A stretch of DNA of 64,000 nucleotides from an uncultured Poribacteria bacterium (GTDB taxonomy: Bacteria > Poribacteria > WGA-4E > WGA-3G), in the NCBI GenBank assembly GCA_951828515.1, contig OX639992.1:1952008-2016007 (forward strand), given 5' to 3'. A program made the translations under genes and the position numbers. The notes under the pieces are model-generated. The model ran no database searches. It saw only the letters and a list, made by a program, of their open reading frames with translations, and was not told the DNA's origin. Positions 46,975 to 54,134 of the stretch are shown piece by piece; positions within the stretch are counted from its first letter, which is position 1; the number at the start of each line of letters is the position of its first letter.

Positions 46975-47149
46975 GGTATATCAAGTATCAAGGCGTTAAC
47001 CCCTAACAAGTGGGTAGGAAACCGACACGTAACCTTGCGATTACGCTTGAACTGTCTGCCAACTTGATACATATATTAAACCACAATTAAGGCTAAATGC
47101 CAACTCTTTTTTTAGGCGTTTGGTCTTTTCCAAGAGGACGGTTTTTCAT

Positions 47150-47188: not shown

Positions 47189-50100
47189 ATGAATGTCTTG
47201 AAAAATCTTATTGAACGTTGCCACCAACGGCACGAAAAACCGTTGCAGCAGCGGCAGACACAGGTAATGTCTGCACCGTATAAGGGTCTTCCTTATCATT
47301 TCACAGTCTATTGCGCACATAGGTATCCTGTGAAACTCTATGAACTCGAAGAGTCAGATATCTCTTTCATGCCAATTGGACACGCTCCTTGGAACGACAA
47401 CGGTCCGCGGGATTTTGGCGGTGAACGCTTCCTGAAAGGCCAAGGTATAGAGGACTGGCTCATCAGACATTGGCACAAATCCTGGGGAATTCAGGTATAT
47501 ACAGGTATTCCATCCGAACACGACGGCGCGCGATGGCATGACATCGATTTTACATACGAAGCGTTATGCGCCGCACCTGATGCTATTTTAGCCTGTATTG
47601 AGACACTCACCAACGCCGTAGTGAACCCACTGTTGACGCTGTCAAAGTCGGGTGGGATCCGCTTCTCTTGCCGAATCCCCGATTACCTTCATCCAAAGGC
47701 CGAGGCGTCCAAGCAGTATATCTATAAGCACACCGCGACCGGAGAACACTCATATCATCAGGACGTATATCTCGAAATTTCTGGAGAAGAGGGTTATAAC
47801 CGCTGGGATGCGCGCTACGAAATCCTGCTTGGAAATTTGTTAGACCCACCTGTCATTGCCAAAGAAATCCTCTTTGCCATTATTGATGCGCTTCGCGCCG
47901 AGCTCCACGATCCTGTTCCGCTTGAAGAAAAAAAACCGAAATTTATACCAAAATCAGTTCCCATTGTGCCCCTATCCCTCGGCTCGTATAACCTTGATCT
48001 CGCAAAACTGGCGTTTATGAAACGCGGGTTTTCCTATGTTCAAGAAGATAATGGCTCTCACTACTGGCTACCAACCGGTAGCAAGGATAACAACACACAG
48101 GTATCGATATGGGAACGCGATGGCACTGTGTGGGTCCGCACATCAACACCTCACGTTGGGTTGCCGATGGAACCTACACTCATCACAGATGTCTGGGACG
48201 ATACCGGCATCTTACCACCGCTACCCGTTACTGGGCTACCTGTCTCTGAAACAGTGCTCGCCGTACGGGAAGGTAAACTAAGCCCATTAGCGATCAAGCG
48301 ACCATCTCCGGTCCTGCACAAACCAGAACACACTGAAAAAGTTTACGAGCCCCTTGAAAAAACTGCCGTTCAGATCCAGCGTGCTTTCGATGGAACCGCA
48401 CGCATTGCCGGACTTATTGCCGAGAAAGGTGCTGGGAAAAGTTACGCAGCAGAATCCTATCTGCTCAATGGTAGGGTAATTAGCCTAAGCGGAGGATACT
48501 GGACAGTAGAAGAAACAGAAGAACGCCTTCATAAGCGAAACGTTTCATCGGTTGCACGCTGGAGATCTCGACGACACCGGTGGGAACAGGTAAAAGATAT
48601 ACCCGTTGAGCAACGGATGGCGAATCCTTTCCAACATGGTAATATCTGTGAAGACCCGGAGCGGTGCGATGCGCTTGAGAAAAAGGGTGAAGACCCGTCT
48701 GAAAGTATTTGTCCAAAGTGTTCCGTTCATACGGAATGTCAGCAACGTGGCTATCTATCTCAACCCGCTACACTACAACGCGCGGATGCACAAATATTGG
48801 GAACATCCGACCTGTTTTTCAATCCGCGACACGCGGTGAAGGTGGCAGAAATTCTCAAACAGACAGATGAAACAGAACGACTCTGTATCATTGATGAAAT
48901 AGAAGCGCATGATCTGTTTCTTGAATGTCAGGTCTCGAAAGATGTATTAGAGGAATGGGGTGTCAACTGGCAAGGGAGTGCCTTAGGAAACTTTGCTAAA
49001 GCCTTACTGAATGTTTTAGAAACCAAAGGGCAACCATACGGTAATGCTGTCAGACGGACCCGCACAGCATTGCAGGCGTTTGAACAACACGAAGAAGAAC
49101 TCATCATACAAATGTGCCAAGTCAACGTGCGGGGTAAAGTCGTTCCACGGGGCATTATTGATGCCGAAACCGGAAAAGAGTTAGCACGCTTTACCATTGA
49201 GTTTGAGGGTGGCACCTCTGCTTACATTCCTCTCGACAATGACGCTGCAGACGGACTCAAGTCAAAGGGATTGCCTTTTTTCTCGCTGGATTCCTCCGTA
49301 ATTAATGCAGAGACGAGGATCCCCATGCAGATGGTGCAAGCGATTGAGTTGGGAATACTTGACCCGTCAACAGTCGAGAACATTCAGACCTTTCCGACTG
49401 TTTATCCGGATCCAAACTGGACACTCTGGCATTGCTTAAAGCATTTCTTTGCGTATTATAAGTGGGACGACGATGCACCGATGATGTGGCATAATAAAAT
49501 TCTGAGGTTCTGGGTGCCACCGGTGTTGCATCCGGATGTCAAGCACCTTTTGTTTATGTCCTCTACCCTTTCCGAGCGAGATTTATGCAGGGTATTCCCG
49601 GGCGAAGAAATCGCTGTTACTCGTATCAAGCCCGCTGCTTGGGTTGCGGGAAACAAGGTTTTCCAGATTCGCACAGGTACCTATTCACAAGAAATACTCT
49701 TAGAACATTACAGCGACTGGAGCGTTACGGGAATATCTAAAACAGGACAGCGTTTTTTTTCCGGTATCCTCGCAGAAATTGAGAGAGATCCGAATGTTAA
49801 GCATGCGGTTATCACCGATAGATCGCTCATCAGACACCTCACAGAGGTCGAAAAAAAAGAGAACGTCTGTTTTGTGACAGATTTCAAACAGTTGGAAAAA
49901 CTGGAAGAAGCTTTTGAAGAAACACACGTCGTATGGATAGTCGGCACACCGATTTGGGAACTCGGAATCATTTGGCGGCGAGCGCAGATTTTGTTTGGAA
50001 ACGACGAAAAACCTCTCTGTTATGAGACAGAAATGACCGCACGTCGTTACAAGGATGAGCGGGTTCAGCGTGTTTATGAAAAAAATATAATTGGCGCGCT

Positions 50101-50596: not shown

Positions 50597-51203
50597 CCGA
50601 TCCTGTTTCGCTTTCATTCCGTTATTAACGCTTCAATAGGCGTGATACGTCACGTAACGTCTCTTAAATCCTTAAGTTGATAGTCATATTCTATAGGTAA
50701 TAAGAGGACACTAATTAAACTACAAAAAACCGTGTTAAGTTCATAGAATATAACTCATAGTGAAATTGCTTAATAATGTCTCAATACGGTTTTCCTTTCT
50801 AAAATCCTTGCCTGCATTGACTTTCCCTGCTTTAAAGAAAAAAATAAATTGGATTAAAAAGTATATATGTGATATTATATACTGTTAACTTTGTAATATG
50901 TTATTTTATACTAACATTGGAAAACCAGACTGGCAGACCAGACTGGCAGTAATCGAAACTTCATATCTGTTTTTGTACGTGCGTGAGCAAGAGAGGTTGA
51001 CTGTAGAACATAGCGTTCACAATTATTTCAGGTAACCATCTTTTATTACAGAAGAAAACGGATTCATAGGGTTTAGACATCAACTTCAGGAAAATCAAGA
51101 AAAAAGAATGCAAAATTCATTTGTGTGAGAAATTCCTGTTGATACCACAATCTACGTTTTGCAGAAGATAAAAACTCCTTGCTTTAACTGAGGGAGCACT
51201 TTA
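50597..51203. other. AT-rich gap between P2 and P3
   Basis: No convincing gene. An AT-rich block lies at about 50840-50920 and a perfect 13-bp tandem repeat, ACCAGACTGGCAG twice, at 50924-50949. The stretch probably includes the P3 promoter. Confidence 0.5.
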
Positions 51204-54134
51204 ATGACAATGAACTCTTTGGAAGCACTCATTGAACGCTGCCGCCACCGGCACGAAAAGCCGCTGCGGCAGCGGAGAACAGTGGTAACACCTGCCTTAT
51301 ATAATAAAAGTTATTCTTATCAGGTTACAGTTTATTGTGCACAGAGATATCCTGTATTGCTTGCTGACATGGAGCAGGCGGACATTTCCTTTATGCCAAT
51401 AGGACGCGCCCCAGAGTACGACCGGGGCCCGAGGGACTTTGACGGTGAACGGTTCTTGAAACGTCAAGGTCGACAAAACTGGGGGGTAAGACGATGGCAT
51501 GTCTCATGGGGGCTCCAAGTGTATACTGGCGTCCCCTCAGCAAGCGATGGTGCCCGATGGCACGACATTAATTTTAAATATGAAGCGGTTTGTGCCGCAC
51601 CCGATGCGGTTTTTGCCTGTATTGAGGCACTCGTCAACGCTGTCGCAAACCCGTTATTGACGATGTCAAGATCTGGCGGCTTACGTTTCTCTTGTAGAGT
51701 GCTTGATTACCTCCATCCAAATACCGAGCAAGAGAAATTATATATCCACAAACATACACCCACCTCAGAAATCCCAGACCAACGCGACGTATATCTTGAA
51801 ATTCTCGGAGAAGAAGGATACAGCCGTTGGGATGCTCGCTATGAAATCTTGCTTGGAAATCTGTTGGATCCCCCTATCATTGCCAAAGAGGTCCTCTTTG
51901 CACCTATTGATGCACTCCGTGCTGAACTCCACGAACCTATTCCTCTTGAAGACGCAAGTTTAATATCGGTTACCGAAAACGAAGCCCTGGAGAAGAATAT
52001 TGCCTCTACCCCAGAATCTCTCGGTTCGTATAATCTTAACTTGGCAAAAGTGGCGTTTTTGAAGCACGGCTTTTCTTATGTCCGACAAGAGGATGGGTAT
52101 CATTACTGGATGTCCCCTGATGACCCCGCTGGCACCGAATACGTATCGCTGTGGGAAAGCGACGGCATCGTATGGGTACGCGCCTCTTCACCTAACGCCG
52201 GGCTGCCTACAACATCAACATCAATCACTCACATCTGGAACGATACAGGCATTCTACAACCAATACCTGCCATAGGGTTGTCTGTCTCTGATGAAGTGAA
52301 TGCTGTGCGGGAAGAAAAACTTAGCCCATTGGCGGTAAAACGTCCGCCTCCGGTGCTGCAGAAATCAGAACGCTCCAATGCAGTTGATGAGACCTTTGAA
52401 ACGCAGATCGCTCAGGTAGAGCGTAGTCTCGATGGAACTTCGCACATCCTCGGGCTTGTTACCCAGACAGAGAAGAAGAAGAACTATGGAATTGAATCCC
52501 ATGTCCGCAATGGCGGTGCAGCCTGTCTAAACCTACCAAATGTCAAACTGGTAGAAGAAGCAGAACAACACTTCCGAGAGCAAAATTTGCCAAGTGAAAA
52601 GATACAGATATCGACAATTCATCAACTGTTTTTCGATCCACAACATTCAGAAATAGTGAAAGAAATGCTCGAAAAGGGAGATGATGCAGAACAACTTTGT
52701 ATCGTCGCAAAAACGAAAGCATATAAACTCTTTCCTGAATGTAGAATATCTAAAAACGTGTTAGAAGAGTGGAGTCTAAACTGGAAAGGGAGTGCTTTAG
52801 GAAATTTCGCCAAAACTTTACTGCATGCAGTAGAAATCAAGGATAAACCGCATGCCGATTCTGTCAAACGGATTCGTACAGCGGTTCAAGTATTTGAATG
52901 GCAAGAAGAAGCACTCGTCAAACAGATGCGCGAGGTCAATGTAGAAGGTAAGGAACCACACTGGACATATTGGCACCAACTCAAGTGTTTCTTCACGCAC
53001 TACACGCGCGATGCTGACGCACCGATACGGTGGAACAACGAAGTCTTGAGGTTCTGGATACCACCGGTGCTGCACCCGAGCGTCAAACACCTCCTGCTCA
53101 CATCGCTAATCCTTCCTGAAGAACATCTTCGCAGGGCACTTCCTGATGACAAAATCACAGTCAATCGTACCGAACCAGCAGCGTGGAGGGCAGGAAACCA
53201 AGTATTCCAAATTCGCACAGGTGTTTATCCACGACATACAATTTTAAACTATAACGGTAACAAAGATACCACCGGTATATCTAAAACGGGACAGCGTTTT
53301 TTTGCGGGTATACGTGCAGAAATTGAGAGAGATCCGAGCACGAAGCATGTCATCATCACTTACAAGTCAATCGCGGTGCGATTGGAAGATATCGCACAAA
53401 AAGAAAATGTCTGTCTCGTGACCGATTTCAAAAACGTGAAAGACTTGAACGCTGCCCTTAGAGAAGCACAAGTCGTTTGGATAGTCGGCACGCCACAATG
53501 GAATCCGAATCTCGTTTGGCGGAACGCACAGATTTTGTTTGGAAACGATGAGGAACCGCTCTCTTATGAGGAAGAAGAAACGGATACCCTCCGCTATAAG
53601 GATGAGCGGATCCAAGGCATTTATGAACAAGCCGTTGCCCGCTTACTCACGAGACTTATCCTGCGAATGAGGTTGAACTACTGGACAAATAAGAAAGTTG
53701 TATTAATCTCCAGTTTGGCACTCCCCGACATCACCGACAGGCCTGAAACGCTTCTTTTCGACTGGGAAGATTTTGAAGTCGCTGGTGGGTTAAACAAACT
53801 CCCTGAGGCGATTGCCACACGTCAGCATTTTGAAACAGAACGCGACAATCTAACCGCCGAATCCAGTAGGGAAAAAGTTGAACAGGTCTTAGGATGTTCC
53901 TCAAGGCAGGCAAATCGTGTACTGCAAAGGCTTAGGGGTGGAAGAACCTTACGTGTCCCGTTCCGTCAGCAAATCCTCACGCTTCTGGCTGCCGATGGCG
54001 AAAAAAGAACAGCCGAATTCGTTGCGGCTATTGAAGGACATCCAAAAGCGATAAAAAATGAGCTCAAACGTCTTGTAGATGTGGGCGAGATTGTAAAGGT
54101 CCGGTGGGGCGTATATACCCTACCACAGGCGTAG
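51204..54134 (+). CDS. P3: P2 paralogue with altered ATPase motifs
   Basis: A 976-residue paralogue. The N-terminal domain matches P2, but the acidic motif is WHDINF (Asn for the last Asp). The Walker A region reads VTQTEKKKNYG, without GxGKS. The Walker B region is LCIVAKTKAYKLF in place of LCIIDEIEAHDLF, and the SSTLS-like motif becomes LLLTSLIL. The cysteine-cluster segment is deleted. C-terminal lobe and winged helix are well kept (NKKVVLISSLALPDITDRPE; KRTAEFVAAIEGHPKAIKNE). The ATG has GAGGGAG 8 nt upstream. No stop interrupts the ORF, so it is not a simple pseudogene. Confidence 0.8.
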   Translation: MTMNSLEALIERCRHRHEKPLRQRRTVVTPALYNKSYSYQVTVYCAQRYPVLLADMEQADISFMPIGRAPEYDRGPRDFDGERFLKRQGRQNWGVRRWHVSWGLQVYTGVPSASDGARWHDINFKYEAVCAAPDAVFACIEALVNAVANPLLTMSRSGGLRFSCRVLDYLHPNTEQEKLYIHKHTPTSEIPDQRDVYLEILGEEGYSRWDARYEILLGNLLDPPIIAKEVLFAPIDALRAELHEPIPLEDASLISVTENEALEKNIASTPESLGSYNLNLAKVAFLKHGFSYVRQEDGYHYWMSPDDPAGTEYVSLWESDGIVWVRASSPNAGLPTTSTSITHIWNDTGILQPIPAIGLSVSDEVNAVREEKLSPLAVKRPPPVLQKSERSNAVDETFETQIAQVERSLDGTSHILGLVTQTEKKKNYGIESHVRNGGAACLNLPNVKLVEEAEQHFREQNLPSEKIQISTIHQLFFDPQHSEIVKEMLEKGDDAEQLCIVAKTKAYKLFPECRISKNVLEEWSLNWKGSALGNFAKTLLHAVEIKDKPHADSVKRIRTAVQVFEWQEEALVKQMREVNVEGKEPHWTYWHQLKCFFTHYTRDADAPIRWNNEVLRFWIPPVLHPSVKHLLLTSLILPEEHLRRALPDDKITVNRTEPAAWRAGNQVFQIRTGVYPRHTILNYNGNKDTTGISKTGQRFFAGIRAEIERDPSTKHVIITYKSIAVRLEDIAQKENVCLVTDFKNVKDLNAALREAQVVWIVGTPQWNPNLVWRNAQILFGNDEEPLSYEEEETDTLRYKDERIQGIYEQAVARLLTRLILRMRLNYWTNKKVVLISSLALPDITDRPETLLFDWEDFEVAGGLNKLPEAIATRQHFETERDNLTAESSREKVEQVLGCSSRQANRVLQRLRGGRTLRVPFRQQILTLLAADGEKRTAEFVAAIEGHPKAIKNELKRLVDVGEIVKVRWGVYTLPQA

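Follow-up and report, generated by a model that had tools for sequence, protein, structure and literature searches.

How does a long helicase-like gene come to be intact when every one of its ATPase motifs has changed: is it a dying copy of its neighbour, a partner of that neighbour, or a protein with a job of its own? This question is raised by P3, at positions 51204-54134 of the window (the 64,000-nucleotide stretch of Poribacteria contig OX639992.1 that was analysed; all features below lie on its forward strand unless stated otherwise). ORF analysis gave a reading frame of 976 codons with an ATG start and zero internal stops. Together, the ORF, a structural model and the selection analysis suggest a 976-aa ATPase-dead protein that combines Prim-Pol-like, XPD/DinG-type helicase-like and winged-helix parts. 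The paralogue P2 (47189-50596, for which the ATG at 47189 is a likelier start than the TTG at 47120) retains GAGKS, DEIE and SSTLS in the alignment, along with an intact cysteine cluster; according to the tree, it is not the parent of P3.

Aligned with P2, P3 retains the overall architecture, and each of the changes listed in the preliminary description was present. The Walker A segment IAEKGAGKSYA of P2 reads VTQTEKKKNYG in P3 (residues 419-429, positions 52458-52490), with TEKKKN in place of GxGK[ST]. In the Walker B/DExx region, LCIIDEIEAH has become LCIVAKTKAY, with AKTK at the acidic positions (the former motif now reads LCIVAKTKAYKLF, 52695-52733). LLFMSSTLSE of motif III has become LLLTSLILPE (LLLTSLIL, 53091-53114), TSLIL standing where S-A or S-T is expected, and most of motif VI is lost, IIGRMG being replaced by LILRMR (LTRLILRMRL, 53646-53675). 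In the N-terminal domain, WHDID has changed to WHDIN. The five-cysteine segment of P2, whose position in intact members suggests an Fe-S cluster, is deleted (site at FREQNLPSEKI, 52572-52604). The first description missed a second deletion (site at 52938-52964), of about 90 residues of P2 (RGIIDAETGKELARF...ILDPSTVEN), between DExx and motif III. It had also described the C-terminal part as conserved and the gene as free of stops, and this agrees with our alignment, in which the frame is open and P2 is matched at 61% identity over the C-terminal 391 aa. The orthologue of P3 in genome G012 (L034, 81% identical) carries the same losses. Because of this, and of a dN/dS of 0.20 for the pair, the losses in P3 go beyond chance or sequencing error.

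The selection estimates bear directly on the reading of P3 as a decaying P2 pseudogene that is by chance still open. Such a reading would draw on the loss of every catalytic motif, the two large deleted segments and the stops present in some family members of other genomes. Neutral evolution was not seen, however: P3 and L034 differ by a dN of 0.105 at a dS of 0.52, and their dN/dS of 0.20 (bootstrap 0.16-0.25) is far from the value near 1 expected of a pseudogene. The value for P2 and its orthologue is 0.23 (0.19-0.27), and codon-model omega was 0.27 in the P3 clade, 0.28 in the intact clade and 0.21-0.38 in the other dead clades. Internal stops, the other sign of decay that had been proposed for checking in relatives, occur in none of the 11 P3-clade genes, and P3 is nearer to other dead genes of its locus than to P2. 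We give the pseudogene reading almost no probability; for the lineage it is already refuted, and decay could have escaped detection only if very recent and confined to the species. P3 has lost its motifs while remaining under purifying selection.

Between P3 and L034, columns of the former motifs have changed about twice as fast as random columns (dN 0.215 vs 0.097, P=0.0005 by resampling). The same columns in the P2 pair show no such excess (dN 0.113 vs 0.129 for random columns, P=0.68). Faster change at the former motifs is what is predicted when ATPase constraint is relieved within an otherwise constrained protein. Among other dead clades, the altered core is as constrained as the rest of the protein in the GPWD clade (core omega 0.19); in the AEKD clade the core is relaxed (omega 0.70).

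The tree and the gene order show where P3 comes from. P3 and its G012 orthologue fall into a clade of 11 members (support 98), all 11 without the ATPase motifs; the cysteine segment is lost only in P3 and L034, the remaining nine having it. The identity of P3 to several of its best-matching clade members is 66-67%, vs 59% to P2. Wherever the neighbourhood is readable, P3-clade genes share one locus (LamG...SNF2-VWA), ahead of SNF2, VWA and YCF48 genes; the assignment rested on gene order in six genomes (G000, G012, G021, G028, G006 and G013) and on the distance to the VWA gene in four (G032, G015, G004 and G027). On tree and synteny, P3 is the positional orthologue of the gene of this locus, with its motifs lost clade-wide, and not a dead copy of P2; its origin as a dying P2 duplicate is ruled out by tree, locus and dN/dS. 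The SNF2 helicase gene that flanks P3 (54169-56025, reverse strand, by gene order) was also considered as an obligate partner and ruled out, as SNF2 stands alone at sites empty of P3.

How common is the dead state? The P3 genome (5.85 Mb, one contig) has nine long family members, P1, P2 and P3 among them. P1 (20510-22819) is a shorter paralogue from another dead clade, with Walker A and the cysteine region deleted. In a first search, members turned up in 29 of 35 further genomes of the genus; of 24 more distant genomes, none had a member, one marginal match aside. With an outgroup query, members were also found in a sister genus belonging to the same taxonomic family. Every named relative is a Candidatus Poribacteria, and the family is restricted to Poribacteria. 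Searches of Pfam, NCBIfam, PHROG and PDB sequences gave no match above cut-off for P2 or P3, no match to a TOTE-type AEP (PF22548) was found in the genus, and literature searches returned no description of the family.

We collected 139 members and counted motifs in the 125 that have at least 800 residues, including two outgroup genes. GxGK and D[ED] are both present in 18, one of the two in 12, and neither in 95. The outgroup genes carry the full motif set (e.g. GTGKN, QDD or HDE, SATL, QAIGRARL), and the intact state was therefore taken as ancestral. When the motif columns were left out of the tree, the dead members fell into seven maximal clades, or eight with partly changed members counted; the largest, which contains P3, is weakly supported as a unit (44), and the number of ATPase losses is therefore approximate. 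Other parts of the protein have been kept: of the five cysteines, four are retained in every one of the 77 dead members in which the segment is present (139-member alignment), and the W-H-D, SGG-R and WD-RYE residues hardly vary among dead and intact members. The remaining cysteine position is Phe in one clade of seven members. Calling such genes degenerate copies is wrong here, where the dead state prevails and the motor-bearing P2 is the minority form.

The distribution of P3 is patchy. Its clade was found in 12 genomes but in none of the nearest relatives, and P3 is therefore dispensable at species level, although many assemblies are incomplete (78-97%) and gene absences are provisional. 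The nearest relative of P2 is a gene of genome G030 at the same locus, where P3 is missing; DNA homologous to the 5' flank of P3 reaches the P3 start codon there and then joins the end of SNF2. Other near relatives have neither P2 nor P3 at the locus, and the sites are empty in G016, G023, G026, G033 and G024. This pattern, with its CDS-sized difference between G000 and G030, several paralogues per genome and a primase-helicase-like architecture, could suggest a selfish or mobile family of primase-helicase descent, kept by its own spread and not by a host function. Other dead clades point the other way: the gene order around the GPWD clade is shared by six genomes and that around the NDSE clade by five, and both are therefore vertically inherited. 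Searches of phages, plasmids and viral contigs with derived-family and outgroup queries also gave no match, and an origin from such elements was set aside. We regard the mobile explanation as very unlikely. At the level of the DNA, the P2-P3 spacer (50597-51203) is homologous to the P2-SNF2 spacer of G030 (L267) through the last base before the P3 ATG, and the breakpoints of the presence/absence difference lie at the start codon and the SNF2 3' end.

The preliminary description had proposed that P3 is a non-catalytic partner, decoy or regulator of P2. Its first half stands, a non-catalytic and maintained protein being supported by the sequence, the dN/dS of 0.20 and the absence of stops; the tie to P2 finds no support in the locus and clade evidence. 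As for the co-occurrence that it suggested examining, in G021, G028, G006 and G013 a P3-type gene sits at this locus with no P2-type gene beside it, and G030 has the P2 orthologue without P3. Our results lend no support to a partnership with P2 itself, and P3 is no degenerate P2 copy and has no obvious need for P2.

In a broader version, P3 would form a hetero-oligomer with P2 or another paralogue that bears the ATPase, and be its non-catalytic subunit, in an AddAB-like pairing. P2 and P3 are adjacent and co-directional, and a Walker-A-intact member was found in 12 of 12 P3-clade genomes and in 6 of the 17 remaining genomes (P=0.0004, with no correction for relatedness or copy number). Yet four of the 12 P3-clade genomes have no member with both Walker A and the DExx acids, eleven genomes have dead members without any Walker-A-bearing derived member, and P2-type and P3-type genes occur apart, as described above. 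We consider such a complex unlikely, though less so than a mobile origin; a partnership of P3 with some Walker-A-bearing paralogue is possible.

What, then, might the protein be? The AlphaFold2 models had a pLDDT of 78 for P3 and 77 for P2, the P2 model being poor at the N-terminus. Foldseek and VIA-align comparisons of the P3 model place an SF2 helicase core of XPD/DinG type at residues 394-868 (52383-53807), with two predicted lobes as in these helicases. The match to XPD (9pd3_B) had a Z of 15.9 over 422 residues at an rmsd of 5.2, and DinG a Z of 15.1; in the P2 model, residues 388-1037 matched XPD/DinG likewise (best Z 14.2). The likeness to the XPD/DinG (Fe-S) helicases extends to intact family members, which carry GxGK, DE and S-T, with a cysteine cluster lying between motifs I and II, whereas P3 has neither the ATPase motifs nor the cluster, is about 10% identical and has no Pfam helicase match. 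Towards the C-terminus, the model predicts a helix-turn-helix and winged helix (53862-54131), with weak matches to AbiEi-type wHTH domains that are short and cover the wHTH part only (E 0.0012-0.027).

The N-terminal domain (51204-51938, its limit taken from the model) lies outside the XPD/DinG structure matches, and for it we used profile-profile alignment and residue conservation. With hhalign, it is collinear with Prim-Pol AEPs (PF09250), scoring 32.8 over 165 columns for the outgroup and 28.0 over 143 for the family, with probabilities of only 29% and 9%; controls scored 10-17.5 over at most 28 columns. Differences from the Prim-Pol enzymes lie in the motifs. Motif I (DxD) reads WHDIN in P3 (51558-51572), N taking the place of a second acid that is variable family-wide. 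The motif II histidine (GGxH) is replaced by arginine, GGxR being found in P3 (SGGLRFSCR, 51672-51698) and, wherever the column is present, in intact and dead members alike (110 of 110). YLEILG (51792-51809) lies further along the domain. There is modest evidence that the domain is Prim-Pol-like. One could imagine that it gained a new activity on the near-invariant residues W-H-D, GG-R...R and WD-RYE, and that the helicase part was demoted to a nucleic-acid-binding scaffold, hence the repeated and harmless loss of ATPase; we think this improbable, if somewhat less so than a mobile origin.

The account that we prefer, and hold to be likely, is that P3 is a selected, ATP-independent nucleic-acid-binding pseudohelicase. 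We base it on the open frame, the purifying selection, the faster change of the former motifs, the orthology with a locus-fixed dead clade and the helicase fold in the model. The ancestor would have been a protein with Prim-Pol-like and XPD/DinG-type helicase parts. ATP hydrolysis would then have been lost, with the N-terminal domain, helicase lobe 2 and winged helix kept by selection. P3 would need no ATP for its work: most likely, its helicase scaffold and winged helix would bind a nucleic-acid structure, giving the protein a structural or regulatory role. This binding is predicted from the fold and the winged helix only, and the changed pocket may bind nucleotide. Species after species, engine-less copies have been kept intact, which probably points to a job on DNA or RNA without ATP.

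Single pseudohelicases are already known. In this bacterial family, most members are ATPase-less, and about seven maximal dead clades have stayed intact, with synteny in part of them and with purifying selection; the family offers a natural experiment on a motorless helicase scaffold. PriA of Deinococcus radiodurans is a pseudohelicase whose motifs are lost lineage-wide, with ATP hydrolysis gone and DNA binding kept (PMC4504706). The P3 clade likewise has lost its helicase motifs across a whole lineage, but PriA is a replication-restart protein of another helicase family, whereas the P3 family is multi-copy and mostly dead, and its DNA binding is only predicted. AddB of AddAB reuses a helicase-like domain for Chi recognition (PMC4824097). 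It resembles P3 in having a helicase-resembling domain with another use; unlike P3, which no such partner gene adjoins, AddB belongs to a helicase-nuclease complex.

A sigma-70-like promoter element lies upstream of P3 (50849-50882), of a type common to other family genes: in the upstream regions of dozens of them, approximately TTTGAC-N17-TTGATAATAT is common to intact and dead paralogues. In the outgroup genes L195, L238, L239 and L240, the N-terminal domain is separated from the helicase by a zinc-ribbon-like segment (C...H...CHNC or CFNC) that is absent from the derived family. In L241 (G007:C23), an outgroup-type N-terminal domain runs on into a helicase-like part of another kind, which shows a weak DpnI-like match. 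At L302 (G021) and L303 (G028), four family genes form an array in which two P1-type and two full-length genes are adjacent.
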